This document shows positions 5,614 through 27,725 of a stretch of 64,000 nt of DNA, one piece after another (the first letter of the stretch is position 1; every line of letters begins with the position of its first letter). The translations under genes and the position numbers were made by a program. The notes under the pieces were generated by a model. That model made no database searches, was not told the DNA's origin, and was given only the letters and a program-made list of their open reading frames with translations. This DNA is from an uncultured Synechococcus sp. (GTDB lineage Bacteria > Cyanobacteriota > Cyanobacteriia > PCC-6307 > Cyanobiaceae). The stretch lies in assembly GCA_913057985.1 (NCBI GenBank), contig CAJXPL010000015.1:1-64000 (forward strand), read 5' to 3'.

Positions 5614-6531
5614 TTAGCGGCTTTTGGCGAAATTTTTTTCGAGGAATTTGCGAAACAGCTTCCATTCGCTGCGGCTGAACAGGGGTCGCGCCTGGATCGC
5701 CAGTTCAAGCCCCCGTTCGTTCAGGCCCGGATTCGTGGTTTTGTTCAGGTTTTCGTTCTCGGTGTTGGCTTCCAGCTGCTGCCTGAGCCGGTCGGCTTGC
5801 TGGGGCAGGGCCTGCTTGAGCACATTCCACAAAAAGGTGCTGGGCTCATGGGGATCGCTGGCTTGCTCATAGTCGATACGCACGATCTTCAAGTCGCGTT
5901 TGCTGCCCAGCTTCAACAGCGTCTGCTCCAGCGATTTGGGATCGGTGCAGGAGAAATCAGCCGTTTGTTGGAACGTGTCGAAGTGGCTGGTTTCAGGGTT
6001 GTGGCGTCCTTCCTTGAGCAGCTGGGTGTGGCAGGAGCGGATGAAGGCCTCGGGCTCCCTGTTGGCGAACAGCACCGTCCAGGCGATCGAACGATGCTCA
6101 AGGCTGTCTTCCAGCCCAGTGATCAAACGCTTGGTGCGCGATTTGGCATAGCGATACAAGCCCGTCTTGCGTTCCTTGTTGGGCGTTTTTCGGCGCGGCG
6201 GTTCTGCAAGGCCGTTGCGCAACGTTCCGAAAATCGCTTCGAAGGAGAGAAGGATGGTGTGGATCCTGTCGGGATGGTCTCCCGCTAGCTCCATCAGGGT
6301 GGATCGCGTTTGTGATGTCAGGCGTTTGGGCGTTTTGCGGTCCCAGCGGCCCCATTGCAGGTGACGCCACAACTCGGAGCAACGCTTTTTGAACGTGTTC
6401 GGCCCGAGATAGAGCACCCCCTGCTCCAGCAGCAGCTCGCGGTTGGTCTGCAGGTTCCGCTGCAGGTAGGTGCTGCCTGTTTTGTGCAGCCCGCAATGCA
6501 GAACAATCCGGTCCGGTTTGAGTTGACTCAC
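5614..6531 (-). CDS. Sulfotransferase-like protein
   Basis: Encodes about 305 residues from a GTG whose GTGA overlaps the stop of the NeuB-fusion gene, which decides the start. The N-terminal segment RIVLHCGLHKTGSTYLQRNL has the KTGST loop typical of PAPS-dependent sulfotransferases of the bacterial HKTGTT type. The segment AWTVLFANREPEAFIRSCHTQLL is the expected second motif. The C-terminal half is basic and rich in Lys and Arg. It is the first of three sulfotransferases and, by translational coupling, is tied to the nonulosonate synthase gene, so it may sulfate a nonulosonate-containing glycan. Confidence 0.7.
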   Translation of the reverse strand: MSQLKPDRIVLHCGLHKTGSTYLQRNLQTNRELLLEQGVLYLGPNTFKKRCSELWRHLQWGRWDRKTPKRLTSQTRSTLMELAGDHPDRIHTILLSFEAIFGTLRNGLAEPPRRKTPNKERKTGLYRYAKSRTKRLITGLEDSLEHRSIAWTVLFANREPEAFIRSCHTQLLKEGRHNPETSHFDTFQQTADFSCTDPKSLEQTLLKLGSKRDLKIVRIDYEQASDPHEPSTFLWNVLKQALPQQADRLRQQLEANTENENLNKTTNPGLNERGLELAIQARPLFSRSEWKLFRKFLEKNFAKSR

Positions 6532-8813
6532 GCGACCTGCCGTTCCGGGCTGGCTTCGACACAGCCTTCCAGACGTTCGAGGGCAAGCCAGGCACCTTCG
6601 CCATTGTTCTTGTGTCCCTGCCAGATTTCGGGAATGAAGGTCGCCTGCGGGGCGAGTTGGTCCATCAGGACAAACAGCTGGACCCAATCGATTTCGCCGT
6701 CGTGGATCTGCAGGCCTTCGCCATCGACCCCCTTCGCATCGGCCAGATGCAGGTGCGCCGTGAACGGAAGGATTGCCTTAAGGAAGGCACTGAACGAGGC
6801 CTTGAGGTGGGTGCAGGCGAGCTTCGAGTGGGACACATCCAGGCAGACGCGCATCCCGGTCTCCCGGCAGAAATCCTGAATGAAGGCGGTGTCGACGAAC
6901 AGGTTGTGATAGCGCTGCCCACCGAAGTGCCAGGGGAAGGGAGGCATGGTCTGGGGAATGATCTCCACCTCGTCGGCGGTGTTGATCTGCTGAAGGCTGT
7001 CGATCAGGCGCTGGCGCAGCGGTTGCAACTCCGCTCGCTCGAGATGGTGGTGTTCGGAGAAGCCGCCAACGTTCGTCACCAGCAGGACGGGATCGGGACA
7101 GCGGAAGCGGCGTCGCAGATCACGGGAAATGTCGACCACGCGTTGGAGTTCTTGAATCGAGTGGCGGCGGTAGTCGGAATCCGCGCTGCAGAGATCGAGG
7201 GTGTGATCGCCGGCAAACAGTTCGGGGGCGTGCACCACCAGGCCGATCGGCTGCGGTGTTGGCAGCACCTGGTCCAGATTTACCTCGAGATCCTTGTAGC
7301 TGAGGTGCATTTCCACCAGGTCGAGATTGCTTGTGGCAGCAAAGCTCTCGATGTCGTGGTATCTCACCGGGACGCCAAAGCGATGCTGGAAGCGGTAAGC
7401 GCGTGGGGTGGCTGCCGGGGTTTCCAGGTCGGAGGGGAAGAAGAAGTCCCCGGTGGCTTTGTTCACCGGCAAGGTCTTGCCGATGAGGTCATCCAGGCGA
7501 TTGGGCTGCAGACCCTGTCCAGGGCTCTGGATGCCCACCATCGCCTCGGTGATCTCCGTGCCGGCAGGCACATCGCAGGTGGCGACCAGGCTCTTGGCCA
7601 GCACTTCGCGGTTCATCATTTCGCCCTGGCTGATGCTGCGTTCACCGCCGCTGCCCATCGATTCCTCCACCCGGCGAATGCCCTGGATCATCTGGGCGAA
7701 TTCATTGGGCAACAGGCTCACCTTGTGGTCGTTGCCCTCCATGGAGCGATCGAGGGTGATGTGTTTCTCGATCACCACGGCGCCGAGGGCGGCGGCGGCA
7801 ATGGGCACTTCGATGCCGCGTTCATGGCCGGAGTAGCCCACGGGAGCCTCGGCCAGGTCCCGCAGCCGCTCGAGGTAGCGCAGGTTGACGTCCTTGAACG
7901 GGGTGGGATAGGTGGAATTGCAGTGGAGCAGCACGTAACCGGCTCCTTCGTTCTGGAGGTGCCGAATGCCAGAGCGGATCTCCACCTCAGACGCCATGCC
8001 GGTGGAGCAGATCAGCGGCTTGCCGGTGGCTGCAAGGCTGGAGAGCAGGGCGTGGTTGGTGAAATCGGCCGACGCCACCTTGAAGCCTTCCATGCCCCAG
8101 CGGTTGAGCTTCTCGAGGCTGGCTTCATCCCAGGCGGTGCAGAGGGGCACCAGCCCTTTGCTGGCGGCATGGTCAAAGCAGCGGAACAGTTCGTCGTCGC
8201 TGAGTTGAAAACGCTCGAGCAAATCCAGGGTGTACTGGGTGCCCAGATCGGAGGCCATGTCGTTGCTGTCCCCCGCATTGCGGTACAGCCGACTCATGTC
8301 CCGCATCTGGAACTTGGCGCAGTCCGCTCCCGCGGCGTGGGCGGCATCGATCAGTTGGAGCGCGATGTCGAGATCGCCGTTGTGGTTGTTGCCGATTTCG
8401 GCGATCAAAAAACAGGGGGCGTCATCACCGATGCGGTGGGAGCCGATCTGCAGCCCATCGGTGGCACGGCGGGCCACAGCCACGATCCGGCCATGGCTGT
8501 CCAGCAGCGGCAGGGCAATGATGCGGGAGTTGAGCAGGGCGCTCAGATCACTGGCGCTGGTGCCTTCGGCGGCCGAGCGGCAGTTTGAATTCATGGCCGC
8601 GGTGACCGGCCGGTTCAGGTCGATCTCGCCGCAAGTGGCAATCCAGCGGCGGAAGTCGCCGTCGGTGAGCACGCCTTGGAGGATGCCGCTCTCGGAAACA
8701 ACGAAGATCAGCCGCGACTGGTTGGCCGTGATCTTGCTGAGCGCCGAGAGGATGCTGTCTTCCGCGAAGACAACGAACTGGGTGAAATTCCGCTCAATCA
8801 GGATGCCTCTCAC
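6528..8813 (-). CDS. NeuB-type synthase with CBS, SAF and TIM-barrel domains
   Basis: Encodes 761 residues in four visible parts. Residues 1-118 look like a CBS pair (SILSALSKI, GVLTDGDFRRWI, LPLLDSHGRIVAV). Residues 132-385 are the NeuB synthase core (FLIAEIGNNHNGD, GYSGHERG, IEKHITLDRS), which condenses PEP with an N-acyl-hexosamine to a nonulosonic acid. Residues 403-458 are a SAF/antifreeze-like domain, usual in NeuB. Residues about 470-745 look like a xylose-isomerase-like TIM barrel (LVEMHLSYKDLE, VCLDVSHSKLAC, HLHLADAKG), resembling sugar-phosphate isomerases or epimerases. NeuB alone is about 350 residues. The fusion suggests that substrate preparation or product handling is coupled to synthesis, with nucleotide sensing by the CBS pair; these last roles are inferred. 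Confidence 0.85.
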   Translation of the reverse strand: MRGILIERNFTQFVVFAEDSILSALSKITANQSRLIFVVSESGILQGVLTDGDFRRWIATCGEIDLNRPVTAAMNSNCRSAAEGTSASDLSALLNSRIIALPLLDSHGRIVAVARRATDGLQIGSHRIGDDAPCFLIAEIGNNHNGDLDIALQLIDAAHAAGADCAKFQMRDMSRLYRNAGDSNDMASDLGTQYTLDLLERFQLSDDELFRCFDHAASKGLVPLCTAWDEASLEKLNRWGMEGFKVASADFTNHALLSSLAATGKPLICSTGMASEVEIRSGIRHLQNEGAGYVLLHCNSTYPTPFKDVNLRYLERLRDLAEAPVGYSGHERGIEVPIAAAALGAVVIEKHITLDRSMEGNDHKVSLLPNEFAQMIQGIRRVEESMGSGGERSISQGEMMNREVLAKSLVATCDVPAGTEITEAMVGIQSPGQGLQPNRLDDLIGKTLPVNKATGDFFFPSDLETPAATPRAYRFQHRFGVPVRYHDIESFAATSNLDLVEMHLSYKDLEVNLDQVLPTPQPIGLVVHAPELFAGDHTLDLCSADSDYRRHSIQELQRVVDISRDLRRRFRCPDPVLLVTNVGGFSEHHHLERAELQPLRQRLIDSLQQINTADEVEIIPQTMPPFPWHFGGQRYHNLFVDTAFIQDFCRETGMRVCLDVSHSKLACTHLKASFSAFLKAILPFTAHLHLADAKGVDGEGLQIHDGEIDWVQLFVLMDQLAPQATFIPEIWQGHKNNGEGAWLALERLEGCVEASPERQVA

Positions 8814-8852: not shown

Positions 8853-9527
8853 CTACTTCAGATCTCTGTAGGAGATCAGCAGGGCGATCTGCCGAAGCAG
8901 TGGGTTGGTCTGGCGCACGGCCCAGTGGCGGCGGGCGACACCGCGGTGAAGCGGGCGCATCAGGGTCGCCTGGCAGAGCAGCTCGCGAGCACTGCTCCAG
9001 TCGCCAGTAGTGATGGCGGCTTCGGCCCCCAAGCGCAGCTGATTGAAGCTGGATTGGGCATTGCCCGGGTAGCCGATGCTGCTGGGGAGGGGCTGTGGCG
9101 GCTGCTGTCGCTGTGCATCCAGGGCCTGGAGCAGGGCGGAGGGGCTGAACTGCGTTCCGTACCCCATCCACTCCAGCCAGCGCGGATCCGGGGAGGGCCC
9201 TTCGGCATCGAGGACATCCAGATTGGGGATGGCCTCGAGGGACCGCCACACGCCGCTGCCGGCATAGACGTGGCCGCCGTAATCCGGCTGCAGACCGAGA
9301 TCGCTGATGGCAATCGCTCGGCAGCCGAAGTCGAGGGCGTCGAAGAAGGCCGTTGAGGAGAGGGTGGCCAGCAGCCGGGCCTGCTTCAACAGCACCGGCA
9401 GGGGGCGATAGTCCAGCCGCAGATTGGCAGGGGGCACCCCCAGGGTTTGCTTCAGCGTTGTGCTGATGTGGGTGTTGACGTCATGAAAAGTGGCATCGCC
9501 GGGCGCGATGCGGGGTTTGATCAGCAC
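8853..9527 (-). CDS. 3' part of frameshifted putative glycosyltransferase
   Basis: Continuation of the gene at 9521-10165 in another frame. The sequence just before and after its GTG reads NWEVLIKPRIAPGD, which lines up with the FKPRTSS segment of the paralog at 11187-12518, and the middle (ARLLATLSSTAFFDAL, CRAIAISDLGL) lines up with its ITVSSTAAMES and TRIVGDLGV segments. This is the nucleotide-sugar-binding half of a GT-B-type fold. On its own it lacks the N-terminal domain and is probably inactive unless frameshifting restores it. Confidence 0.6.
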   Translation of the reverse strand: MLIKPRIAPGDATFHDVNTHISTTLKQTLGVPPANLRLDYRPLPVLLKQARLLATLSSTAFFDALDFGCRAIAISDLGLQPDYGGHVYAGSGVWRSLEAIPNLDVLDAEGPSPDPRWLEWMGYGTQFSPSALLQALDAQRQQPPQPLPSSIGYPGNAQSSFNQLRLGAEAAITTGDWSSARELLCQATLMRPLHRGVARRHWAVRQTNPLLRQIALLISYRDLK

Positions 9528-10165
9528 CTCCCAGTTGGGAGAGCCAGATCGCTGAGAAGACGCACGAGCCGGGCCCGTTCGCTGGTTGATGCAGGCATGA
9601 TCACCTGCTCGGCAAAGACAAGGCGCCGTGGACGTTTTGCCAGAGGGATCAGGTCTGTGCTGGGGGTGTTGCGCCGCAGACCGGTGAGCACGGTCCGCTG
9701 TTGCGCGAATGGGGTTCCGGCCACCAGCTGTGCCAGGGACTCTTGATCACGGGGACCGCTGAGGCAGATCAGGTCGTAGCCCAGCCGCCAGCTCACCCCT
9801 TCGATGAAGTGGTCCAGCACCACGCCGTTGAATCCACAGAACAGCAGGGGGCGCTGGCGTTCCTGTTGCAGGGCGAGACGGATGTCATTGAGCTTGCTGC
9901 CCGTCAGGAACACGCCAATGGCATCAACGCTCAGCAGACGCCGATCCCGCAGCAGCTGAGCCAGGCTCTGGTGGCGCAGGCTGGCCCTCTGGGCCAGGCG
10001 TTGCAGCAACGCCCGGGGTGTTCCATCCCGTGGAATCACGTTGATGGTCCACTGCACGCTTCGTTCGGTCGGAGCGCTGCAGAGGGCCTCGCAGGCCAGC
10101 AGTTGGCTGTCACTGTCGGCGATCAACAGCACGCTGATCGTGGGCTTGGTCGGGGGCGTTGTCAT
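9521..10165 (-). CDS. 5' part of frameshifted putative glycosyltransferase
   Basis: Encodes 214 residues: the N-terminal half of a protein related to its two upstream neighbours. Segments such as ISVLLIADSDSQLL, DAIGVFLTGSKLNDI and LGYDLICLSG match in kind those at the same place in 10162-11190. It ends prematurely at LPTGRC, a few bases after a run of three G on the plus strand at 9537-9539 (three C in the coding strand). One added base there would read LPNWEVLIKP and join the two parts into one protein of about 435 residues. It overlaps the upstream gene by four bases (ATGA). Either a real frameshift mutation, a slippage switch or a sequencing error. Confidence 0.65.
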   Translation of the reverse strand: MTTPPTKPTISVLLIADSDSQLLACEALCSAPTERSVQWTINVIPRDGTPRALLQRLAQRASLRHQSLAQLLRDRRLLSVDAIGVFLTGSKLNDIRLALQQERQRPLLFCGFNGVVLDHFIEGVSWRLGYDLICLSGPRDQESLAQLVAGTPFAQQRTVLTGLRRNTPSTDLIPLAKRPRRLVFAEQVIMPASTSERARLVRLLSDLALPTGRC

Positions 10166-11190
10166 CGCTGCCCCTGGCGCTCCAGCGCGCTCAGGGCGTG
10201 GATCAGGCGGTTCGGTCCGTCGGTGATCTCAGCACCCATGCCCCCGAGCCAGGCCTGGTTCGCCAGGGGCAGGTCGTTGACGGCATCCAGGTGGGGGATG
10301 CTGCGCAGCCGATGCATGGCGCCGCAGCCGAAGAAGCCGGACGTGCTCTGTTCCTCGTGGATGCCGTAGTCGCCCACGATGATCGGGATCCGGCCCCAGG
10401 CCATGGCCGCGAGGCTCCAAGGTGAGCTCACTGTGAGGCAGGCGCTGCAGGATCCCAGCAGCGGCAACAGCTGTCCGGGGGCGGCGTCCACCAGGTTGTC
10501 CGCCCGGGGCGCGTCACTGGGCAGCAGCGCCGTCGTTGCGTCCCAGCTGTGGTCGCGTTGCAGCATCACGGTCCAGTCCGGCCGTTGGCGCGCCCAGCAG
10601 TTGAGTTGGCGCAGCAGTTGCTCCCGGGCACCGATATGGGTGGGGATCTGCTTTTGGATCAACGCCAGCAGCAAGGGCTGCTCGGCGGGGGCGCAGGGTG
10701 CGGCCGTGGGGAACCAGAAGCCCGTGCTGATCACGGCCGGCAGCTTCAGGCTCGCGGGCCAGTTGAAGGTGAGCGATTGCAGCTGACGGCGCTGGTGTTC
10801 GCCGCTCACCAGCAGCAGGTCACTGCCCAGGCGCAGGCTGAGATCGCGGATCAAGGCATCCCCCACCAAGGGCACGAGGGGCCCGCTGAACAACGTTGCT
10901 GCCGTCTGTTCACGTGCGCTGCAAAGGCCTTGATAGGTCTGGATGAAGCGCTGAACCTGATGTGGGTCCTGCAGGAACAGGCCAATGGCGGAGACCTGGT
11001 CCAAGAGGGGGTGTGCCGCCAGTTGCTGCACGTCGATGCTCAGGTGCGGTGCCGGCGTGGCCAGGGGTTGGTGTCCCTGAAGCGGTGGTCCTGCCGTGAT
11101 GCAGTGCTCCCCCTGCTGGTGCAGCACCTCGGCCATCAGCACGCAGGCGGACCGCTCCAGCCCTCCGTCGCTGACCAGCAGCAGGGTCAT
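10162..11190 (-). CDS. Putative capsule glycosyltransferase (DUF6716-like)
   Basis: Encodes 342 residues. The layout is two Rossmann-like halves: an N-terminal half starting MTLLLVSDGGLERSACVLMAEVL and a C-terminal half with CLTVSSPWSLAAMAWGRIPIIVGDYG, which corresponds to the nucleotide-sugar-binding part of GT-B folds. I recognise it as belonging with the DUF6716-type putative glycosyltransferases often found beside neuA and neuB. It is one of three tandem relatives and overlaps both neighbours by four bases, so all are one operon. It probably transfers a nonulosonic acid or related sugar; donor and acceptor are not visible. Confidence 0.6.
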   Translation of the reverse strand: MTLLLVSDGGLERSACVLMAEVLHQQGEHCITAGPPLQGHQPLATPAPHLSIDVQQLAAHPLLDQVSAIGLFLQDPHQVQRFIQTYQGLCSAREQTAATLFSGPLVPLVGDALIRDLSLRLGSDLLLVSGEHQRRQLQSLTFNWPASLKLPAVISTGFWFPTAAPCAPAEQPLLLALIQKQIPTHIGAREQLLRQLNCWARQRPDWTVMLQRDHSWDATTALLPSDAPRADNLVDAAPGQLLPLLGSCSACLTVSSPWSLAAMAWGRIPIIVGDYGIHEEQSTSGFFGCGAMHRLRSIPHLDAVNDLPLANQAWLGGMGAEITDGPNRLIHALSALERQGQR

Positions 11191-12518
11191 CGTTCCCGCA
11201 GCAGCTTGGAGAGCCAGCCGAATCCCACCACGCTGTCGCGCAGGCTGCGCAGCATGCGACGGGTGCGGTGACGCTTGCGTTGGCTGGAGCGGGCGCCACC
11301 GCTGCTCAGCATCCGCCGGCCCCCGTTGCGCAAGGCGGCTTTCTGCCAGTCACTGCTGCCCCAGCTGAGGGGGCCGTGGCTGGAGGTGCCCAGCGGTGCA
11401 GGCGGGTTGTTCAGCCGTTCCACCAGGGCGGTGATGAAGCGATGCTCGCCGTCCCGCTGCAGACCCTGCTGCTCGAGCCACTGCGGGTCATGGATGACGT
11501 CGAAAGGGTTGGCCTTGATGGCGCCGAAGCAGGCGATGGCGCCCGAGCTGGCGAAGAAGTGGTTGCCAAGGGTTTCGGTCACCCCCAGATCACCCACGAT
11601 GCGGGTGCTGATGCCCATCGCCATCGACTCCATGGCCGCCGTCGATGAGACGGTGATGGCGCAACCGCACTGGCGCAGCAGCAGGGTGGCGGGTTTGAAA
11701 CTCAGGCGCAGATTCGGTTGATCGCGCGTCATCTTGTCGATCACGCTGGCCATCTCCCCATGGCGCCTGTGCAGGGTGCTCTCGATGCTCGAGGTGCGTG
11801 GTTTGAAGATCACAGGGTGATCGGGCCAAGCCGCGGCCAGCGCTTTGATCTGGTCACAGAGAAAGCGGCGCTGCAGGGGATGCACCGGAATTGACGGCTG
11901 TTCGAAGAACACAATCGAAGGGGGATCCGGTTCTTCAGTGCGCTGTTTTGTGCGCCAGAGAATCGGCAGGCCCGTCACCACCGCATTGCTGCTATCGAGG
12001 CCCAGGGCTTTGCGGCCACGGCCATACAGAGCCAGATCGTCGGCACTGTTGAGGCAGAGCAGGTCGGCGCCCGAGCGATCCATCATTCCCTCGAGGCCGA
12101 AGCGGAACAGGATCCCGGGGTAAGCGCTGATCAGGCGTGGGCGTTGCTCCTGATTTGCCCAGATGTTTTGCAGTTGCAGCAGGGCGTCGCGGCTGCGCTG
12201 GCCATCCAGACCCAGGATCAGGGCATCGACCTCTCCTGCCATGCCCGTGCAGAGCTGGTGCAGATCGTTCCAGTTGTGTTTCTCGATACGAGTCTTGGGA
12301 TCGATTCGCCGAATTTCGAGACGCTGCCGGCGCGAGAGAGCCCGGTTGTTCAACTGCAAGAGCAGCAGGGTTGTCTCAGCTCCTTCCCGCCGGCAGGTTG
12401 CCAGCATGGTCATGGCGAGTTTGCCGAAGGAATCGAAGCAGGCCACGGCGGTGACCTTGCGGCCGACAAGGCGCTTGGATTCTGGGGGCGCCATCAACGG
12501 CAAAACCTTGCTGGGCAA
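11187..12518 (-). CDS. Putative capsule glycosyltransferase (DUF6716-like)
   Basis: Encodes 443 residues and is the best preserved of three tandem relatives. The N-terminal half begins KVTAVACFDSFGKLAMTMLA. The C-terminal half has PVIFKPRTSSIEST, CAITVSSTAAMESMAMGIS and RIVGDLGVTETLGNHFF, which resemble the CMP-sugar-binding C-terminal domain of sialyl- or polysialyltransferase-like GT-B enzymes. It follows neuA by two bases and overlaps the next gene by four. The context of NeuA and NeuB points to a CMP-activated sugar as donor, which is an inference. Confidence 0.65.
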   Translation of the reverse strand: MPSKVLPLMAPPESKRLVGRKVTAVACFDSFGKLAMTMLATCRREGAETTLLLLQLNNRALSRRQRLEIRRIDPKTRIEKHNWNDLHQLCTGMAGEVDALILGLDGQRSRDALLQLQNIWANQEQRPRLISAYPGILFRFGLEGMMDRSGADLLCLNSADDLALYGRGRKALGLDSSNAVVTGLPILWRTKQRTEEPDPPSIVFFEQPSIPVHPLQRRFLCDQIKALAAAWPDHPVIFKPRTSSIESTLHRRHGEMASVIDKMTRDQPNLRLSFKPATLLLRQCGCAITVSSTAAMESMAMGISTRIVGDLGVTETLGNHFFASSGAIACFGAIKANPFDVIHDPQWLEQQGLQRDGEHRFITALVERLNNPPAPLGTSSHGPLSWGSSDWQKAALRNGGRRMLSSGGARSSQRKRHRTRRMLRSLRDSVVGFGWLSKLLRER

Positions 12519-12520
12519 AA

Positions 12521-13201
12521 TTATTCGTCCTTTTGGGCCGCGATGCAGCGGCAGAGGGCCAGATCCTCCGGCGTGTCGATTTCTGGCCCCACCTGCTCCA
12601 ACATCACTGGGCGGGCTGGAGGGCAGAAGCGGCTGCCGCAGCGTCGGAAGGCCGCCAAATTCATGGCGTAGATCGCGCCGGTTTCCAAAAAAGCCGGTTC
12701 CAGGTCCTGGCGGCGTTGGCGAGGCTGTGCAGGGTCGTGGTTGATGCCCTGTCCATCGGCGCGCCAGAGGAAGCCGTGCCAGGGGCTGACGGCGAAGCTG
12801 CTATTGCAATCGTCTGCTTGCAAGGCGTGCAGCACCGCATCGATCTGCTCCCCGGTGGTAAAGGGGGAGGTGCATTGCAGGAAGACCAGCTCCGTTTCCA
12901 GTGGTCCCTGCTGCTCCAGCTGCTCGAGAGCATGCAGCAAGGCCGATTCCGAACTGGCCCTATCGCCGGCGATGGCGGCGGGGCGACGAATCACGCCAGC
13001 CCCTTCATGTTCGGCGGCGGCCGCGATGGCGTCATCGTCGGTGCTCACCACCACCCGGCCCACGGCAATGCTGGCCTGAGCTGCCCGAATGCTGCGGCAG
13101 ACCAGGGGCACGCCGCCCACCTGTTGCAGGTTTTTTCCCGGGATGCCCTTCGATCCGCCGCGGGCGGGGATCAGGGCCAGCGCGCCACGGGGGACTGCCA
13201 T
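12521..13201 (-). CDS. neuA: CMP-nonulosonate cytidylyltransferase
   Basis: Encodes about 226 residues. The start (AVPRGALALIPARGGSKGIPGKNL) is the classic nucleotide-binding P-loop of CMP-N-acetylneuraminate synthetases, followed by RVVVSTDDDAIAAAA, FLQCTSPFTTGEQID and PEIDTPEDLALC, all family hallmarks. It activates a nonulosonic acid such as sialic, legionaminic or pseudaminic acid with CTP. The ATG at 13201 is used because upstream codons would run into the divergent kpsC start. It heads the minus-strand operon with the three putative transferases and the NeuB fusion. Only 32 bases separate it from kpsC. Confidence 0.85.
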   Translation of the reverse strand: MAVPRGALALIPARGGSKGIPGKNLQQVGGVPLVCRSIRAAQASIAVGRVVVSTDDDAIAAAAEHEGAGVIRRPAAIAGDRASSESALLHALEQLEQQGPLETELVFLQCTSPFTTGEQIDAVLHALQADDCNSSFAVSPWHGFLWRADGQGINHDPAQPRQRRQDLEPAFLETGAIYAMNLAAFRRCGSRFCPPARPVMLEQVGPEIDTPEDLALCRCIAAQKDE

Positions 13202-13233
13202 CGGTGAGGATTCAGTGCGACCTGTCTTACCCG

Positions 13234-15231
13234 ATGACCAGGCCTGCTGCTCTGCGGCTCGGGGTTCCGGCCCGGGGGATGCTTGCCCACCAAACGCTGC
13301 CTGAGCTGATGGCACCGGACCGGTTGGTGCCAGGCCGCCACCGGGATGTGGATGTGCTGCTGGCCTGGGGGCGGCGCCCCAGTGCGCTGCGGGTGGAGCG
13401 CCTGGCGCGTCAGTGGGATCTACCGGTGTGGCATCTCGAGGACGGTCTGCTGCGCTCGGTGGCCAAGGGGCGGAAGCATCCCCCTCTGGCGTTGTTGGTG
13501 GATGTGTTGGGGGTGCATTTCGATGCCACGGCCCCCAGCCGGATGGAGCAGTTGATTGCGGCGCCGATCAATGCGGCTGAGGTTGACCGCGCTCGCGCTC
13601 TCCAGAGGCTGTGGCGTGAGCAACGGCTCAGCAAGGTGAACCCCCCGGTGGAGGCGGAGGCCCCTCAGGAGCCCTACGTGCTGGTGGTGGATCAATCCGC
13701 TGGGGATCGATCCATCGCCCTCGGGCTGGCGGATGCCAGCTGTTTTCAGCGGATGCTTCAGGCCGCCCTGGCGGATCATCCCGACTGCACGGTGGTGCTC
13801 AAGGTGCATCCGGATGTGATCTCTGGCCGCGCCCGGGGCCATTTCAAGGCTCAGGATCTGGCCCATCCCCGCGTCCGCCTGAGTGCGGATGGTGGCCATC
13901 CGGCACGGCTGCTCGAGCAAGCCCGGGCGGTGTATGTGGTCACCTCCCAGATGGGGTTTGAAGCCTTGCTCTGGGGTCGCCCGGTCCACTGCTTCGGTAT
14001 GCCGTTTTATGGCGGCTGGGGGCTGACCCACGACCGATGCGAGGCCCCAGTCCGGCGGCGCCAGGGCGCCAGCCTGGAGGCTCTGGTGCATGCCGCTCTG
14101 GTGGGGGCTTGCCGCTGCATCGACCCGCATCGGCACCAGCCCTGCAGCATCGAAACCTTGATGGCCGCGATCGGCTTGCAGCGGCGCCTGCAGGCGCAAC
14201 AGCCGCCGCGGTGTGTGGCCTTCGGTTTCACCCCCTGGAAACAGCGCAATCTGCGTCGCTTCCTGGCGGGCAGTCAGCTGCGCTTTCGCGCTCCCTGGCG
14301 GCGGATTCCGCAGGGCGTTGATGCCGTGGTGGTCTGGGGGCGGCGCGCCCGACCCAAGCTGCTCGACGCGGCGGCGCGGCGGCAGTTGCCGGTGCTGCAG
14401 GTGGAGGACGGTTTCCTGCGCTCGGTTGGCCTCGGGGCTGATCTGGTGGATCCGGTGTCTTGGGTGGTGGATCACCAAGGCGTGTACTACGACGCCACCC
14501 GGCCCAGTGATCTGGAAACACGCCTGGCAACGGGGCAGTGGACCCCGGCCCAACGCCAGCGGGCCGCGGCGTTGCGTCAGCGGTTGGTGGAGGAGGCGAT
14601 CACCAAGTACAACCTCCAGGCGGAGCCTTGGACGCGCCCTGCCGGCCAGCGACGGGTGGTGCTGGTGATCGGTCAGGTGGAAAGCGATGCTTCGATCCGC
14701 TACGGCGCCCCGGGGCTGCGCAGCAACCGCGCCTTGCTCGCCGCGGTGCGGGCGGCGGAGCCGGAGGCTTATCTCGTGTACAAGCCGCATCCCGATGTTG
14801 TGGCCGGTCTTTGCCGTGCCGGTGCCGGCGAGGACGGTGCCGCTGAGATCTGCGATGCGGTGCTGCCGCAGGGGTCGATCCAGCAGCTGTTCACTCAGAT
14901 TGATGCTCTCCATGTGCTCACCTCCCTGGCGGGGTTTGAGGCGTTGCTGCGCGGCTTGGAGGTCCACTGCTGGGGCCTTCCGTTCTATGCCGGCTGGGGA
15001 CTCACCCAGGACCGCGAACGTTGCGACCGCCGGCAGCGGAAGCTCGCGCTTGACGAGCTGGTGCATGCCGCCTTGATCGACTACCCCCGCTATGTCAGCC
15101 GCGATAGCGGCTGGTTCATCACGCCGGAGCAGGCCATCGACGATCTGGTGGCCTGGCGGGCAGCCCCACCGCAGCGGCGCACGCTTGTGCAGGCCCTGTT
15201 CCGCCACTGGGGCCGGCTGCGGCGCCGTTGA
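13234..15231 (+). CDS. kpsC: Capsule polysaccharide beta-Kdo transferase KpsC
   Basis: Encodes 665 residues and is internally duplicated. The N-half carries WHLEDGLLRSVAKG, VLKVHPD and the segment HCFGMPFYGGWGLT. The C-half repeats these as LQVEDGFLRSVGLG, VYKPHPD and HCWGLPFYAGWGLT. This is the known layout of KpsC, whose two modules alternate beta-2,4 and beta-2,7 Kdo transfer to build the Kdo linker on a phospholipid anchor of group 2-type capsules. It acts at the cytoplasmic face of the inner membrane with KpsS. It is divergent from neuA and followed by kpsS on the same strand. Length is usual for the family. Confidence 0.9.
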   Translation: MTRPAALRLGVPARGMLAHQTLPELMAPDRLVPGRHRDVDVLLAWGRRPSALRVERLARQWDLPVWHLEDGLLRSVAKGRKHPPLALLVDVLGVHFDATAPSRMEQLIAAPINAAEVDRARALQRLWREQRLSKVNPPVEAEAPQEPYVLVVDQSAGDRSIALGLADASCFQRMLQAALADHPDCTVVLKVHPDVISGRARGHFKAQDLAHPRVRLSADGGHPARLLEQARAVYVVTSQMGFEALLWGRPVHCFGMPFYGGWGLTHDRCEAPVRRRQGASLEALVHAALVGACRCIDPHRHQPCSIETLMAAIGLQRRLQAQQPPRCVAFGFTPWKQRNLRRFLAGSQLRFRAPWRRIPQGVDAVVVWGRRARPKLLDAAARRQLPVLQVEDGFLRSVGLGADLVDPVSWVVDHQGVYYDATRPSDLETRLATGQWTPAQRQRAAALRQRLVEEAITKYNLQAEPWTRPAGQRRVVLVIGQVESDASIRYGAPGLRSNRALLAAVRAAEPEAYLVYKPHPDVVAGLCRAGAGEDGAAEICDAVLPQGSIQQLFTQIDALHVLTSLAGFEALLRGLEVHCWGLPFYAGWGLTQDRERCDRRQRKLALDELVHAALIDYPRYVSRDSGWFITPEQAIDDLVAWRAAPPQRRTLVQALFRHWGRLRRR

Positions 15232-15304: not shown

Positions 15305-17290
15305 GTGCGGATCGAGGGACCAGTTCTGCTGTTGATGGGTCCGATCGGTCTGTTCTTCGCCCGCTTGTGCCGCTACTTGCAAGGCTGTGGCATTCCGGTC
15401 ACGAAGGTGGCGTTCCCCCTGCGGGAATTCGGCTTCCCAGGCGATGTCTGCGTGTCCTACAGCAAGGGGATGGATTCTTGGCGCCCCTTCCTGCGTCGGC
15501 TGATTGAAGAACGGGGAATTCGCCACATCTTTATGTATGGCGACTTCATCATTCCCCACCGGATTGCCATTGAAGAAGCCCGCGCCCTCGGCGTTGAAGC
15601 CTGGGTGTTTGAGCTTGGCTATCTGCGCCCGAACTACGTGACGCTGGAGCGGGATCGGGTCAATGCCCGCTCCAATCTCAACAAGCCAGCAGCCTTCTAT
15701 CGGGAGCTCCCCCCGTGTGACCAGCTGCCGCAAAACATCGTTCTGGACCCGGGCTGGCGCTGGCGCAAGGCCTGGAAAGCGCCAACCTTCATTCAGCACG
15801 CCTTCACCCGCTACCCGATCATCGAAGGGGAGCACAAGCTTCAGCCTTCCCCAGGCTTCCTCTGGTGCCAGGTGAGGGGCACCTGGCGCTATTGGCTCTA
15901 CCGCTGGCAGGAGCGGGCGGTGAAGCAGCGGTTGCTGGAACACTGCTCCTTCTTTCTGGCGGTGTTGCAGGTCTCCAGCGATTCGCAGATTCAGATGGGG
16001 TCGCCCTACCGCGGCATGCACGACTTCATCGAAGACGTGATCCGTTCCTTCGCCGGCCATGCCCATGCCTCCGACCATCTGGCCTTCAAGCACCATCCCC
16101 GGGATCGCGGTTACAACAACTACGCCTCATTGATCCGGCTGCTCGCCAAGCAATACGGCGTTTCTGGCCGGGTGCATTACTTCCACGACGGACCCCTCAG
16201 CCGCTACCTGCGCACCTGCCGTGGGGTGATCACGGTGAACAGCACCGTGGGGCTGCAGGCCTTGTTCCATGCCGTGCCCACCAAGACGATGGGGGACACC
16301 TTTTACAACCTGGAGGGATTGACCGATCAGAAGCCGCTCGATGCCTTCTGGTGTGATCCCCAGCCCAGCGATCGGGCCCTCTTCTATCGCTTCTACAACC
16401 ATCTGGTGCTCACCACCCAGGTGAATGGGAATTTCGATGGAGATTTCCCTTTCCGCACGACCTTCCCGATCGGTCCGGAAGCCCGTCAGCTTCCCCCCAG
16501 TCCCGAACTACCGACTCCGATAGCAGGTAGGCTTCGCAGCCCTGTTGTGCTGCTGGGACGGCTAGTGGGCAGGCTGGCCTGGGCTGGCCTTGGTTTCACC
16601 CTCTATGGCCTGCAGCTGCCAGCGATGCTGCTGCGAAGACCCGACTGGGCCGCTGCATTGATGACCATGGCCTCCTCCGTGGCCCTGCGGGCCCTGGGCA
16701 TTCAGGTGTTGGTGGATGACAGCCAACCCTCGGAACCGGTCGGCATGCCTTTGGTGCACATTTTCAATCACCGCAGCCCTTGTGACGGCTTGGTGATTCA
16801 AGGGCTTCTGCGCATGCCGGGGCTGACCACGGCGCAGCTGCACCTGCGTTGGGTGCTGCCGGGCTATGCCGCTGCCGCCCGCAATGCCGGCTCTGCGGTG
16901 TTGGATCACCGCCAGCCCCAGTCGCGCCTGGCCGGAATGATGAGTGCCTCCACGCTGTTGCGGGACCACGGTGAAATCATGATTGCCCCCAACGGTTCGC
17001 TGGTGACACCGATCGAGGAGCGGGTGTCTCCCAGTGCCTGGATGCTGGCCCAGCACTATGGCGGCCGGGTGGTGCCCTGGTTCTTCAGTTACGACGGATT
17101 GGAGGGGGCCGTCGGTGCCCGCTACAATCCGCTGCAGCTGTTGCTTGGTCGCTTAACGGCACCCTTGGGCACGATTCGCTGTCGCCGTGGTCGAGCGGAC
17201 GATCTTCAGCTGCCCGTTGATCCCCGTGACCGTGAGGGATTCAGCGCAGCTGTTCAGCGGTACTACCGGGAGCAGACAGCACAAGACTGA
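15305..17290 (+). CDS. kpsS: KpsS fused to a PlsC-like acyltransferase
   Basis: Encodes about 661 residues from a GTG (next ATG at 15335). Residues 1-390 match KpsS: LLLMGPIGLFFARLCRYL at the start, FKHHPRDRGY, GVITVNSTVGLQAL. KpsS adds the first Kdo to (lyso)phosphatidylglycerol and is normally about 390-400 residues. The rest is extra: a hydrophobic stretch at about 410-460, then FNHRSPCDG with the HxxxxD acyltransferase signature at 489-494 and MIAPNGSL at 559-566 where PlsC-like enzymes have FPEGT-type motifs. The added domain is thus probably a 1-acylglycerol-phosphate acyltransferase relative. It may acylate the lipid anchor or recruit it. It converges with the ketoacyl synthase gene with 50 bases of antisense overlap. 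Confidence 0.85.
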   Translation: MRIEGPVLLLMGPIGLFFARLCRYLQGCGIPVTKVAFPLREFGFPGDVCVSYSKGMDSWRPFLRRLIEERGIRHIFMYGDFIIPHRIAIEEARALGVEAWVFELGYLRPNYVTLERDRVNARSNLNKPAAFYRELPPCDQLPQNIVLDPGWRWRKAWKAPTFIQHAFTRYPIIEGEHKLQPSPGFLWCQVRGTWRYWLYRWQERAVKQRLLEHCSFFLAVLQVSSDSQIQMGSPYRGMHDFIEDVIRSFAGHAHASDHLAFKHHPRDRGYNNYASLIRLLAKQYGVSGRVHYFHDGPLSRYLRTCRGVITVNSTVGLQALFHAVPTKTMGDTFYNLEGLTDQKPLDAFWCDPQPSDRALFYRFYNHLVLTTQVNGNFDGDFPFRTTFPIGPEARQLPPSPELPTPIAGRLRSPVVLLGRLVGRLAWAGLGFTLYGLQLPAMLLRRPDWAAALMTMASSVALRALGIQVLVDDSQPSEPVGMPLVHIFNHRSPCDGLVIQGLLRMPGLTTAQLHLRWVLPGYAAAARNAGSAVLDHRQPQSRLAGMMSASTLLRDHGEIMIAPNGSLVTPIEERVSPSAWMLAQHYGGRVVPWFFSYDGLEGAVGARYNPLQLLLGRLTAPLGTIRCRRGRADDLQLPVDPRDREGFSAAVQRYYREQTAQD

Positions 17291-18521
17291 TGTTGTGACC
17301 ACCGAAGCCAAAGGCGTTCTTGAGCATCAGTCGCTCGGAGCTTGAGGCAACCAGCTCGACGGGGCCCTGGCTGGTGACCGCCAGCTCCACTTCAGGGTCA
17401 AGGGGATCGGAATTGATGCTGCGGGGCAGCACGCCTTGCCGAATGGCTTGCACGCCAAGAATCGCCTCCACAGCTCCTGCGGCTCCCAGCAGATGGCCGA
17501 TCTGGCCCTTGGGGGCGAAGACGGGGATGTGATCGGCGGCAGCCCCCAGGCTGCGGCGTAGCGCCCTCGCTTCGGCAAGGTCGCCCAGGTTTGTGCCGGT
17601 GGCATGGGCTTGAACGGCGCAGAGATCGCCAGGTTCCACCCCAGCTCGTCGCAGGGCATCCTCGATCGCTTGGCTGGCTTGAGTGCCCTGAGGTTCAGGC
17701 GCCACGATGTGATGGCCGTCGCTGCTGCTGCCACAGGCCAGTTGCCAACCCAGTGCTGCACCGCTGGGGGTGTCCTCCTCTCGCATCATTGCGACCACGC
17801 CCGCCCCCTCGGAGAGCACAAATCCGTCCCGGTTTTTGCTGTAGGGCCGGGAGGCCTGGTCAGGAGCATCATTTCGGGAGGACAGGGCCCGCATGGCGGA
17901 GAAGCCCACGAGTCCCAGTCGGTTCACTGGAGCTTCGGTGCCGCCGGCAAGCACGAGATCGGCCCGCCCGTCATTGAGCAGCATCTGGGCCAGCATCATC
18001 GCTTCGGCTCCTGATGCACAGGCCGATACAGGGGTGTGCGCGCCGCCATGCAAGCCCAGGTCGATGGCGACCTGCCCCGCTGCTGCATCGGGGATCAGCA
18101 TCGGAACAGTGAGAGGGTTGACTCGTGTTGGTCCCCCGGCAGTCAGCTGGTTGTGCTGTTCATGCATCGTGTGGAGTCCGCCGATGCCAGTACCCAGCAC
18201 GATTGCCACGCGGGCTGGATCAATTCCGCTGGTGAACGCGGAAGCCATGGCCCAGGCCTCCCTAGCGGCCAGCAGCCCGAGCTGGGCGCAGCGGTCGGAG
18301 CGCCGCTGCAGCAACGGTTCCAGGGATGCGGTCGCTGCCTCGGGCACGCAGCCCGAAATGCGCACCGGAAGGTCTTCGCTCCAGGCTGCGCTCAGGGCTC
18401 GGATGCCGGAGCGGCCCGCCAACACGCCATCCCAGGTGGACGCGGCGTCACAGCCGAGTGGGGAGACGGAGCCCCACCCTACGATCGAAACCCGCTTGGA
18501 AAGTTGCTGCCGCACTACCAC
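17241..18521 (-). CDS. Beta-ketoacyl-ACP synthase II-type (FabF-like)
   Basis: Encodes 426 residues. The Cys-His-His triad of decarboxylating KAS enzymes is visible: Cys168 in VSACASGAEA, His306 in VQAHATGTNLGD and His343 in KGQIGHLLGAAG. The terminal FGFGGHN glycine-rich segment is present as well. It elongates acyl-ACP with malonyl-ACP. It starts 2 bases after a dedicated acyl carrier protein gene, which suggests a specialised acyl product rather than housekeeping synthesis; the housekeeping fabF of cyanobacteria is normally linked to acpP and transketolase genes. It is downstream of an N-acyltransferase gene and converges on the KpsS-acyltransferase gene. Confidence 0.85.
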   Translation of the reverse strand: MVVRQQLSKRVSIVGWGSVSPLGCDAASTWDGVLAGRSGIRALSAAWSEDLPVRISGCVPEAATASLEPLLQRRSDRCAQLGLLAAREAWAMASAFTSGIDPARVAIVLGTGIGGLHTMHEQHNQLTAGGPTRVNPLTVPMLIPDAAAGQVAIDLGLHGGAHTPVSACASGAEAMMLAQMLLNDGRADLVLAGGTEAPVNRLGLVGFSAMRALSSRNDAPDQASRPYSKNRDGFVLSEGAGVVAMMREEDTPSGAALGWQLACGSSSDGHHIVAPEPQGTQASQAIEDALRRAGVEPGDLCAVQAHATGTNLGDLAEARALRRSLGAAADHIPVFAPKGQIGHLLGAAGAVEAILGVQAIRQGVLPRSINSDPLDPEVELAVTSQGPVELVASSSERLMLKNAFGFGGHNISLVLSAPGSTAEQLR

Positions 18522-18523: not shown

Positions 18524-18805
18524 TCAGGCGGTTGTGGAACTGGGGGGATCGATGTTGAGTGATTCCAGATGGCGCTGGATGTCACCCACCGTCTTGAACT
18601 GCAGCAGCTGCTCTTCTTGGATGCGGATGCCGAAGCAGGTATCGGCCTCGATCAGAATTTCGTAAAACCCGAGGGAGTCGATCCCGATGTCTTCCATCAG
18701 GCGGGCGTCTGCGGTGATGACCGCAGGGTCGGCGCCGGAAATGCGATGCAGGATTTCGACAAGGTGTCCCTCCAGCTGATGCTTATCGAGAGTTCCCTCG
18801 CTCAA
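18524..18805 (-). CDS. Acyl carrier protein
   Basis: Encodes 93 residues. The phosphopantetheine attachment motif is DSLG in EDIGIDSLGFYEI (Ser44), within a four-helix ACP-like sequence, with acidic helix 2 as expected. It carries acyl groups as thioesters. It differs from the usual highly conserved cyanobacterial AcpP (DSLDxVE) by having DSLGFYEI, which is more like carrier proteins of secondary or specialised pathways. It sits between a GNAT-type acyltransferase and a KAS, and probably supplies acyl chains to one or both. Confidence 0.85.
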   Translation of the reverse strand: MSEGTLDKHQLEGHLVEILHRISGADPAVITADARLMEDIGIDSLGFYEILIEADTCFGIRIQEEQLLQFKTVGDIQRHLESLNIDPPSSTTA

Positions 18806-18850: not shown

Positions 18851-19792
18851 TTATCCCTCGCCTCGGTACCAGCTGAACCGCTGGTAGACGGGTTGGTGGT
18901 CAACCTCGATGAAGAAGCCGAGCCGTTCCTTCGGCAGGTCTGAGAGGACGGCGGCCATCAGGATCTCAGTGATCTGGTTGAAATCCTTCGCCAGAGAGAG
19001 GTCGCAGACCTTGGCTTCCATCAGGTTGAAGTATTGGCGCAACAGCACCGGCAGACGGAAGTCCTCGCTGTGCTCCTGGCGGATAGCCATTTCCAGGGCT
19101 TGAACGTTGCCGCTCGGGTGGGTGCTGTCGCTGGGCTGGATGTTGTTGATCGGGTGACGCGGTGGCGGCAGCGTTGGGCTCGTCCTGCGGTAGGGAGGCC
19201 GCAGTAAGGCACTGAGGAAGGTTGTATTGACTGCTTCGCTGTGTGCGAAATGGTTGTAGGAGACCAGCCCGTGCAGGACGTTGTAACCCGAGTGGGCTGC
19301 GATCAGAAGCCCTCCGCGGAACAACGCCATCAGAGAGTGCGGTTGGCGCTGAAAGCGTGGGGCAAGGGCGACTCGACCAATTTCCACATGGTGGTTTTGC
19401 CCCGCCAGCATCGCTTTAATTCCTGGATAGACATGCTCCAGATAGGACTGTTGGCTGCTGGGGAGTTGCTCGGCTGAACTGAACTGAGGAATGAATTGCA
19501 ACCGTGCAGACCCCGCTAGGGCACCGGTGTTCGATTCCAAAAGAATCAGATGGTCGTAAGAGGTGTCGCGGCCGTCAAGGTCGCGTGTGTTGCCGGAGCC
19601 AGAGAGCTGCTGGCGGTAGGTGGATTCCCTCAGAGTGCCTACAGCATCAGCGACGGTCTCAAATGTTGATCCAGGGATCAGATGCAGCTCTAAACCGTCG
19701 AGCTGGAACAGCAGAGTTGTTGCGCGATTGGCTTCGCTCCAACCGGTAGGGAGCAAGACGTCATGCTGCGGTGCTGGTCCGATCTGCGTCAT
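18851..19792 (-). CDS. GNAT-type N-acyltransferase (OlsB/FeeM-like)
   Basis: Encodes 313 residues. Segments LLESNTGALAGSARLQFIPQ, VEIGRVALAPRFQRQPHSLMALFRGGL and YNVLHGLVSYNHFAHSEA read as the fold of acyl-ACP-dependent GNAT acyltransferases, the group that includes OlsB and the N-acyl amino acid synthases such as FeeM. These use acyl-ACP rather than acyl-CoA, which fits the ACP gene 45 bases downstream. The likely product is an N-acylated amine or amino acid; the substrate is unknown. First gene of a three-gene minus-strand operon with ACP and KAS. Divergent from a Wza-like exporter gene. Confidence 0.7.
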   Translation of the reverse strand: MTQIGPAPQHDVLLPTGWSEANRATTLLFQLDGLELHLIPGSTFETVADAVGTLRESTYRQQLSGSGNTRDLDGRDTSYDHLILLESNTGALAGSARLQFIPQFSSAEQLPSSQQSYLEHVYPGIKAMLAGQNHHVEIGRVALAPRFQRQPHSLMALFRGGLLIAAHSGYNVLHGLVSYNHFAHSEAVNTTFLSALLRPPYRRTSPTLPPPRHPINNIQPSDSTHPSGNVQALEMAIRQEHSEDFRLPVLLRQYFNLMEAKVCDLSLAKDFNQITEILMAAVLSDLPKERLGFFIEVDHQPVYQRFSWYRGEG

Positions 19793-19837: not shown

Positions 19838-21055
19838 TTGACCGCTGTCTCAGCTCCACCCATGGTTGTGCCCTCAAGGACCGGTCTTTCCGCAGCTGTT
19901 GCTGCAGCGGTGATGCTCTCGGCTCCTGTGATGTTGGGCGGTGGTGTGAAGGCTGAAGAGCGGATCAACTGGCTGAAGACCCCGGCGGCCGCGCGTAGGT
20001 CTCTGCAATCGCCCCCACCGTTGCCATCCCCGCCCAGCCTGCCGCCCCAGACCTACCGATATCGCTTAGCTCCCGGGGATCGGTTGGTCACTTCGGTGTT
20101 CAAGATCGACGGTTATGAGGCGCAAGTGCAGGTGTTGAGTGACGGCACCATTAATCTCCCGCGACTTGGCACAGTTGATGTGTGGGGGTTGACCTTGGAG
20201 GAAGCCCGGCAGCGCATCACCGATGGCTACAGCCAATTTCTGAGGCGCCCCCTGGTTTATCTCGACCTTGTTGAACAGCGTCCAGTTCGGATCACGGTTA
20301 CAGGTCAGGTTTTGCGTCCCGGCGTCTTCACACTTCCTGTCAACGGTTCAGGTTCCGCGGGGGGCTCTGGAACTCTCACTGGAGTCGGCTCCGATGGTGG
20401 CGGTTGGCCGACCATGATCGACGTGATTCAGAAAGCTGGTGGGATTTCTGCTTCAGGTGATTTGGCCCGTCTGGAACTACTGAGGCCGTCTCCTTCGCCA
20501 GGAGGACCAACCCAGAGCTTCGTTTTCGACTACCTCAATGTGCTGAAAAACGGAGGATTTGCTCCCAATCCATTGATCTACGACGGCGACAGCATCCGGG
20601 TACACAAAGCAACGACACCGATCAACGTTGACTTACTAACGACGGCTGCTTCTAACTTCGCTCCCTCTGCGATCAATGTTCAGGTTGTTGGTGAGGTCGT
20701 TTCGCCTGGGGTGGTCCAGGTTGGATCCAATGCCCCTTTGTCACGCGCCATTCTTGCTTCCGGAGGCGTCACCCGTCGGGGAAGCTCAAAGCGGGTGGAC
20801 TTGATTCGAATGGATGGTCAGGGTCGTACAACCGTGAAACAGTTGCGCTACGACCCCAACGCTGTACTGAGCAATGTGAATAACCCGCCGCTACGCAACG
20901 GTGATGTTGTAGTGGTGGATCGCAACAACTTCACGAAGGTCACCGACACCATGACTGATGCCATGTTGCCGCTCGAACCGATTGTTGATGCGGCTTCTGT
21001 CTTCCGGCTTCTGGGGATGCCGACAGGAGTCGGTTCATCTTCCCGTAATCGTTAG
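19838..21055 (+). CDS. Wza-like polysaccharide export protein (SLBB)
   Basis: Encodes 405 residues from TTG (ATG at 19862 is an alternative). After a signal-peptide-like N-terminus (AAVAAAVMLSAPVMLGGGVKA) comes a Poly_export domain (YRYRLAPGDRLVTSVFKIDGY, VLSDGTINLPRLGTVDVWG) and then SLBB-type beta-grasp repeats (VTGQVLRPGVFTL, VQVVGEVVSPGVVQV). These form the outer-membrane polysaccharide export channel in Wza. No lipobox Cys is visible, so membrane attachment may differ. A second relative lies at 44215-45282. It ends one base before the convergent purB stop. Confidence 0.8.
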   Translation: MTAVSAPPMVVPSRTGLSAAVAAAVMLSAPVMLGGGVKAEERINWLKTPAAARRSLQSPPPLPSPPSLPPQTYRYRLAPGDRLVTSVFKIDGYEAQVQVLSDGTINLPRLGTVDVWGLTLEEARQRITDGYSQFLRRPLVYLDLVEQRPVRITVTGQVLRPGVFTLPVNGSGSAGGSGTLTGVGSDGGGWPTMIDVIQKAGGISASGDLARLELLRPSPSPGGPTQSFVFDYLNVLKNGGFAPNPLIYDGDSIRVHKATTPINVDLLTTAASNFAPSAINVQVVGEVVSPGVVQVGSNAPLSRAILASGGVTRRGSSKRVDLIRMDGQGRTTVKQLRYDPNAVLSNVNNPPLRNGDVVVVDRNNFTKVTDTMTDAMLPLEPIVDAASVFRLLGMPTGVGSSSRNR

Positions 21056-27451: not shown

Positions 27452-27725
27452 GGAATTCCCTCCACACCAGCCGGTACACCAGCCATCCCAGGGGCGGCAC
27501 CAAGACCAAAGGCAGCAGCGCCGCCGCAGTGATCATCGGTTCCCCGAACAGCCAGGGCAGGCACCAGCTCAGGCTGTAGGCCCCAAGAATCAGACCAATG
27601 CGCTGCCGGCGGCCCTGCAGCCAGCTCCAACAGCGCCGGCTGTGCAGCCGGAGACGGTCCAGGCGCCGCTGGCGCTGCTGCGGCAGGTACCGCCAGAAGG
27701 GATGGGGATCGGCAGCTGCCATCAA
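27444..27725 (-). CDS. Small membrane protein of the secretion operon
   Basis: Encodes 93 residues. An Arg-rich head (QRQRRLDRLRLHSRRCW) is followed by two hydrophobic segments (RIGLILGAYSLSWCLPWLF and ITAAALLPLVLVPPLGWLVYRLV), giving a two-helix membrane protein. It overlaps HlyD by 4 bases and the parvulin by 8, which indicates translational coupling. No family is recognised. It may be an accessory subunit of the exporter. Confidence 0.6.
   Translation of the reverse strand: MMAAADPHPFWRYLPQQRQRRLDRLRLHSRRCWSWLQGRRQRIGLILGAYSLSWCLPWLFGEPMITAAALLPLVLVPPLGWLVYRLVWREFHG

Follow-up and report, generated by a model that had tools for sequence, protein, structure and literature searches.

A KpsS-family protein fused in frame to a PlsC-like acyltransferase in Synechococcus capsule loci, with a probable role in building the capsule lipid anchor

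Introduction

Capsules made with KpsS and KpsC have been described as ending in the same conserved way, with β-Kdo on (lyso-)phosphatidylglycerol. A lipid-making gene is linked to capsule genes in the rkp region of S. meliloti, where the fatty-acid-synthase-like rkpA is linked to the capsular K-antigen locus. The Asp of the QXXXD motif is the nucleophile in KpsC-type Kdo transferases (PMC10148158), and rkpA/wcbR has been mentioned within capsule clusters (PMC3908369). In lysophosphatidic acid (LPA) acyltransferases the EGTR motif contributes an Arg, which in PlsC is placed so as to bind the phosphate of LPA (PMC6688108). In SalA, the aminolipid acyltransferase of roseobacters, Val replaces this motif-III Arg (PMC8319176). 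The aminolipid enzymes OlsBA and OlsF pair a GNAT with an acyltransferase of the LPLAT superfamily (PMC12493201).

The locus described here lies in a stretch of 64,000 nucleotides from an uncultured Synechococcus sp. (assembly GCA_913057985.1, contig CAJXPL010000015.1, positions 1 to 64,000), hereafter the window. It joins elements of these systems in one place: a KpsS-family protein is continued by an acyltransferase domain, next to a KpsC-like gene and a set of lipid-making genes (Table 1).

Organization of the locus

The fusion occupies a single forward frame (15305-17290), with a GTG start at 15305, 661 codons and no internal stop. An in-frame fusion of KpsS to a PlsC-like acyltransferase had been claimed in an earlier, sequence-only reading of this DNA, and is borne out by matches to PF05159 and PF01553 within the one frame. 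The KpsC-like frame that adjoins it upstream matches PF05159 in four stretches (E 5.3e-85) and carries one QXXXD motif per half (DQSAGD, GQVESD). KdsA, of the Kdo pathway, is encoded elsewhere in the window genome, on contig C9, with a score over the cut-off. The locus showed no KpsM-type exporter; elsewhere in the genome a single ABC2_membrane protein scores well over the cut-off (114.8 bits).

Table 1. Features of the fusion and its surroundings (window coordinates; functions as predicted)
Feature	Position	Strand	Evidence or remark
CMP-sugar synthetase, PseF/KdsB type	12521..13220 (approximate)	-	PF02348; TIGR03584 133 bits, under cut-off
KpsC-like dual Kdo transferase, directly upstream of the fusion	12901..15231 (ORF; real start probably near 13235)	+	PF05159
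KpsS domain, initiating β-Kdo transferase	15305..16486	+	Residues 1-394; PF05159, NCBIfam KpsS, identity to plasmid KpsS
QXXXD motif (LQVSSD; Q222-D226)	15968..15982	+	Q and D invariant against four proteobacterial KpsS
Fused LPLAT/PlsC-type acyltransferase with N-terminal helices	16490..17290 (stop included)	+	PF01553, TIGR00530, AlphaFold2 model, 5KYM
Motif I NHxxxxD (NHRSPCD)	16766..16786	+	Residues 488-494; alignment of fused and separate forms
Motif III variant APNGSL	16985..17002	+	Residues 561-566; aligned to FPEGT of 5KYM, replaces PlsC FPEGTR
Second β-ketoacyl-ACP synthase, FabF-like	17241..18521	-	TIGR03150 400 bits; convergent with the fusion
Dedicated acyl carrier protein (93 aa; GIDSLGFYEI)	18524..18805	-	PF00550 E 7e-10; NCBIfam ACP 4e-13
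GNAT N-acyltransferase	18851..19792	-	PF13444; homologous to the OlsF C-terminal half
Polysaccharide export protein, Wza/KpsD type, SLBB domains	19838..21055	+	PF02563 E 1.7e-17; PF10531

Several other genes of the window were observed in passing. The reverse-strand gene at 6528-8813 encodes 761 residues with CBS, NeuB and SAF domains and a xylose-isomerase-like TIM barrel, the product being a nonulosonate synthase that carries an extra C-terminal enzyme domain. Between this NeuB gene and the CMP-sugar synthetase (8853-12518, reverse strand) lie putative glycosyltransferases of the DUF6716 type at 10162-11190 and 11187-12518, and genes related to them occupy 8853-9527 and 9521-10165; the glycosyltransferase run is kept in many relatives. 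At 27722-31860 (reverse strand) a candidate ABC transporter resembling those of type I secretion is accompanied by an HlyD-like partner; the ORF sequence of the transporter suggests an N-terminal region resembling cyclic-nucleotide-binding domains.

The KpsS half

The PF05159 (Capsule_synth) profile matches residues 75-377 of the fusion over nearly its full length (profile positions 3-309 of 310, E 4.9e-57). The NCBIfam KpsS model matches residues 7-377 (profile 15-387 of 390) with 284 bits, which is under its strict equivalog cut-off of 600. This half is 33-41% identical to plasmid-borne KpsS of Enterobacterales and Novosphingobium, and the NSTxG motif is kept in the alignment with four proteobacterial KpsS. 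By the features tested, the first half of the fusion is a member of the KpsS family, and β-Kdo transfer is its predicted activity. In the search of plasmid records, none of the KpsS matches extended into the acyltransferase part.

The acyltransferase half

The PF01553 (Acyltransferase) profile matches residues 480-569 with 28.6 bits for the whole protein and 31.1 bits for the domain alone (cut-off 23). TIGR00530, the LPA acyltransferase family, is the commonest and best family match, found in 14 of 16 aligned members. A comparison of the predicted structure of residues 400-661 with PlsC had been proposed with the sequence-only reading. An AlphaFold2 model of this part (residues ~400-661), built with 15 homologues, reached a pLDDT of 84.9 and a pTM of 0.82 and has an acyltransferase fold. 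Among solved structures, T. maritima PlsC (5KYM) matches the model best (Foldseek E 1.8e-6), with Z 15.8 over 227 residues (rmsd 4.3, 13% identity) from model residue 16 to 266, N-terminal helices included. Weaker fold matches are PatA (Z 12.4) and LpxM (Z 9.9). A search of PDB sequences with the acyltransferase profile gave 5KYM as its sole match (E 2.2). The full-length fusion was modelled poorly (pLDDT 58.7, pTM 0.41), and the arrangement of the two domains is therefore not drawn on.

When fused and separate forms are aligned, decayed copies apart, the N and H of motif I are invariant and the D is invariant or hidden by an ambiguous base. Motif III of the intact members reads [AFHYV]P[NS]GS[LI], with one exception (ALNGSL); neither the Glu nor the Arg of EGTR is present, the position of the Arg being Leu in APNGSL. 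By PF01553, motif I and the predicted fold, the fused domain is assigned to the LPLAT superfamily. A true LPA acyltransferase is ruled out by the missing EGTR; with APNGSL in its place, the acceptor side differs from that of a standard glycerolipid acyltransferase. Of the glycerolipid-acyltransferase plan that had been read from the sequence, the HxxxxD motif has stood, and the PF01553 match and the PlsC fold agree with it; the APNGSL segment, standing in the EGTR position, departs from that plan. The domain was also considered as a housekeeping PlsC and rejected as such, the subfamily being absent from near-complete genomes of the same genus that lack KpsS, and other PF01553 genes of the window genome being located on other contigs.

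Lipid-making genes beside the fusion

The second ketosynthase has the Cys-His-His site (CASG/HATGT/GHLLG) and is 39% identical to the main FabF, which is encoded on contig C9. Among near-complete genomes of the same genus its orthologues (71-92%) are present only where KpsS occurs, and G001, G020, G031 and G033 lack both. The best NCBIfam match of the GNAT is OlsF, the bifunctional ornithine-lipid synthase (302-562 of 570, E 1.6e-17). Profile comparison (hhalign) with the C-terminal halves of four OlsF proteins from plasmids gave E 2.7e-28 and a probability of 99.8. Across 27 KpsS loci (the window and 26 others), the GNAT is present in all 27, always convergent and at most 2.4 kb away; 22 of them also have the ketosynthase and ACP, and in 25 the acyltransferase is intact. 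Where ACP and ketosynthase are missing (five loci), the GNAT lies 11-752 bp from KpsS. ACP, second ketosynthase and GNAT form a conserved convergent cassette by the capsule-initiation genes, which did not figure in the earlier reading of the fusion.

The fused acyltransferase is only weakly related to the O-acyltransferase half of OlsF (hhalign E 0.0057, probability 6%), and the domain gave no match to the NCBIfam OlsF model. NCBIfam OlsA was tried as its family and set aside as too weak for use (two members, best E 0.0024). In the OlsF O-acyltransferase halves used for comparison, motif III reads FPAGEV. Together with SalA, this suggests that a non-EGTR motif III accompanies phosphate-free aminolipid enzymes of the same fold, which is a correlation and not a proof.

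Proposed role and acceptor

Judged from its sequence, predicted fold and gene neighbourhood, the KpsS-fused acyltransferase probably helps to build the lipid anchor of the capsule. The fused domain would be a catalytically active acyltransferase, associated with the membrane, and would make or complete the lipid which KpsS then primes with the Kdo linker. The product would be a capsule of the ABC-transporter type, and the fusion would bring the final acylation step and the initial glycosylation step together on a single membrane-bound protein.

The OlsF-type GNAT is constant, and usually an ACP and a ketosynthase of its own come with it; this speaks for a lipid that is built separately, perhaps on an amino acid. 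An N-acyl amino acid is a possible, still tentative, acceptor of the acyltransferase; it is favoured over lyso-phosphatidylglycerol because it explains both the obligate OlsF-type GNAT and the absent phosphate-binding Arg. In such a pathway, ACP and the β-ketoacyl-ACP synthase would provide a particular acyl chain, which the GNAT would take from acyl-ACP and attach to an amino acid through its amino group. The KpsS-fused domain would put a second chain on a hydroxyl, giving an acyloxyacyl aminolipid, to which KpsS would add β-Kdo for extension by KpsC. Since the fusion adjoins genes for an ACP, an elongation enzyme and an amino-acid acylase, the capsule may have its own, perhaps phosphorus-free, lipid. 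A Kdo-linked capsule on a phosphorus-free acyloxyacyl aminolipid, handed straight to the Kdo transferase, is a speculative and somewhat unlikely extension of this. It would entail, with no greater likelihood, that the two steps of OlsF have been split, the N-acyltransferase residing beside the capsule genes with a dedicated ACP and ketosynthase, and the O-acyltransferase being fused to KpsS.

Against an aminolipid, characterized KpsS acts on (lyso-)phosphatidylglycerol, the relation of the domain to the OlsF O-acyltransferase half is weak, and its most frequent family match is TIGR00530. Ornithine lipid is without a hydroxyl of the phosphatidylglycerol-glycerol type that KpsS could use, and we know of no aminolipids from Synechococcus-type cyanobacteria. 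The locus is inherited as a whole, so that co-occurrence cannot separate a shared pathway from a shared neighbourhood. In favour of the anchor-building role, the window genome has KdsA although the LPS of marine Synechococcus WH8102 and CC9311 is without Kdo (PMC4515613), and another sink for Kdo is therefore expected.

Alternatively, the domain might re-acylate lyso-phosphatidylglycerol, or the Kdo-lyso-phosphatidylglycerol formed by KpsS, to the diacyl form and so fix the number and chains of acyl groups in the anchor. The LPLAT fold with HxxxxD and the best family match, LPA acyltransferase, agree with this, and the acceptor of E. coli KpsS is (lyso-)phosphatidylglycerol, with both monoacyl and diacyl termini reported (PMC7694667). 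Such an acceptor is nevertheless unlikely, since the Arg with which PlsC binds the LPA phosphate is Leu here and the constant OlsF-type GNAT would be left without a role. Making or remodelling of the anchor, as the sequence-only reading had it, remains the best reading in its anchor-making part; lyso-phosphatidylglycerol as the acceptor has become less likely than the alternative, being counted down by the motif-III change and the constant GNAT, ACP and ketosynthase.

The remaining probability for the acceptor falls to some other lipid or a sugar. One form of this, in which another molecule of the pathway (a sugar nucleotide or a glycan residue) is acylated in place of an anchor glycerol or amino acid, has a precedent in VexE, an LPLAT of the Vi locus that acylates UDP-GlcNAc using β-hydroxyacyl-ACP (PMC9597891), and PatA and LpxM are among the fold matches. 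It is quite unlikely, because PlsC is clearly the better match by Z score, whereas VexE has been reported as closest to PatA/LpxM, and the PlsC-type N-terminal helices suggest a membrane lipid as the acceptor.

Distribution, constraint and decay

The fusion was searched for in Cyanobacteria genomes and plasmid records. It was found in 25 of 59 relatives, with some matches shortened by contig ends, and also on named contigs of Synechococcus and Cyanobium; several of the genomes are single-contig. KpsS is present in 61 of 400 genomes of the family. As counted from the tabulated frames, 56 KpsS frames are complete; 54 of these, at 655 aa or more, have room for the extension, and the two unfused ones (G669 and G721) have 409-410 aa. 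The profile of the acyltransferase subfamily matched exactly 13 of 390 genomes of the class, the same 13 that have the close KpsS and the GNAT. With the acyltransferase part alone, nothing was matched in the plasmid records. Comparison of the window genome with its close relatives gave a dN/dS of 0.02-0.04 in the KpsS part and of 0.07-0.11 in the acyltransferase; the acyltransferase domain is under purifying selection.

Motif I is intact in the fused domain of 26 of 30 distinct complete genes, one with an ambiguous Asp codon. HxxxxD and motif III are lost in the fused domain of G003, G022, G026 and G029; each of these genomes has a separate, intact copy of the acyltransferase directly downstream. 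The intact separate copies beside four decayed domains indicate that the activity is kept and not merely the polypeptide; the fusion itself is not strictly needed. Both an intact fused domain and a separate copy are present in G015 and G028. In a tree of the acyltransferase copies the separate copies form one clade (95), as do the decayed copies; long branches make the branching order unsafe, and no claim is made about the order of duplication. Two loci count against a role in the anchor, no intact acyltransferase having been found in the stretch covered: in G434 the fused domain is decayed and no separate copy was found there, and in G669 KpsS and the GNAT were found without an acyltransferase.

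The extension might be chiefly a membrane tether or scaffold for KpsS, its catalysis incidental or lost. A fused domain without HxxxxD does persist in five genomes, the decayed part remains an open frame with a dN/dS of 0.32 in the G003-G029 copies, and the domain is absent from G669. This explanation is highly doubtful all the same, since the motifs are intact in the large majority, the intact copies are more constrained than the decayed ones, and an intact separate copy adjoins four of the five decayed domains.

An assembly or annotation artefact, the first of which had been named as the outcome that would undo the sequence-only reading, has a negligible chance of being the explanation and is rejected, because the continuous frame is repeated in dozens of independent genomes, several of them single-contig. 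The search for stand-alone pairs proposed with that reading also found one, in G721.

G721, a distant relative with a small genome, has KpsC, an unfused KpsS of 409 aa, an acyltransferase gene of its own that overlaps KpsS by 4 bp (motifs NHDNPLD and YPSGSI) and the GNAT, followed by kpsF, kdsA and a kdsB-kdsC fusion (stretch L112:7112-16241). The presence of kpsF, kdsA and kdsB-kdsC in this cluster ties KpsS to Kdo. The G669 and G721 loci represent an unfused version of the system, both with KpsC, unfused KpsS and GNAT near kpsF, kdsA and kdsB-kdsC. In G016 (L039:5814-9977) KpsC, KpsS and the acyltransferase lie within one open frame of 1388 codons. This long frame may be a frameshift and not a triple fusion, as the last part of KpsC is matched by a different frame there.

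Novelty and implications

The KpsS-acyltransferase arrangement was not described in the open-access literature searched, in agreement with the earlier remark that such a fusion was unfamiliar from characterized capsule systems; no precedent was found in the open-access full texts. A phylum-wide survey of cyanobacterial EPS mentions neither the fusion nor the acyltransferase (PMC4594306). Within the literature searched, the fusion is a previously undescribed form of initiation for capsules of the ABC-transporter type. As the initiating transferase carries its own acyltransferase in a conserved lipid-making neighbourhood, the origin of a capsule anchor becomes open to direct test. An aminolipid anchor, if that is what the capsule has, would be an exception to the phosphatidylglycerol-anchor rule for KpsS/KpsC systems in abundant ocean cyanobacteria, and would provide a phosphorus-saving surface to organisms often found at low phosphate. 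Kdo would gain a use in organisms whose LPS is Kdo-free, contrary to the suggestion in the same survey that a poly-Kdo linker may be absent from cyanobacterial EPS (PMC4594306).

Comparison with known systems

Like the Synechococcus protein, KpsS of E. coli-type group 2 capsules has PF05159, QXXXD and a KpsC gene directly upstream. E. coli-type KpsS proteins stop near residue 400, whereas the Synechococcus KpsS runs on into the acyltransferase. PlsC of T. maritima (5KYM) has in common with the fused domain the fold, NHxxxxD, the N-terminal helices and the motif IV Pro; it has EGTR where the Synechococcus domain has NGSL, and only the latter is fused to a glycosyltransferase.

OlsF, OlsB+OlsA and the Synechococcus locus all combine an N-acyltransferase of the GNAT type with an O-acyltransferase of the LPLAT type. 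In OlsF both domains are in one polypeptide, whereas in Synechococcus the GNAT is separate and convergent and the LPLAT half is fused to KpsS in a capsule context; with its two acyltransferase domains on separate polypeptides the system is not an OlsF. SalA has the PlsC fold, has lost the motif-III Arg, as has the Synechococcus domain, and serves a lipid without phosphate. It is unfused and has HX5D where the Synechococcus domain has HX4D, and we know of no SalA from a capsule locus.

The S. meliloti plasmid pSymB carries a KpsS-like gene, as found in the plasmid search. The rkp system of that organism has a type I synthase and no KpsS-LPLAT fusion, whereas the Synechococcus locus has a separate ACP and ketosynthase. 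VexE of the Vi antigen is likewise a member of the LPLAT family in an ABC-transporter capsule locus, is dedicated to the lipid terminus and depends on acyl-ACP (PMC9597891). It differs in its nucleotide-sugar acceptor, in being nearer to PatA/LpxM, in a locus without KpsS and KpsC and in having a TPR domain; the family search of the Synechococcus fusion gave no TPR match, its partner domain being KpsS. By analogy, VexE would be the nearest functional counterpart of the fused acyltransferase.
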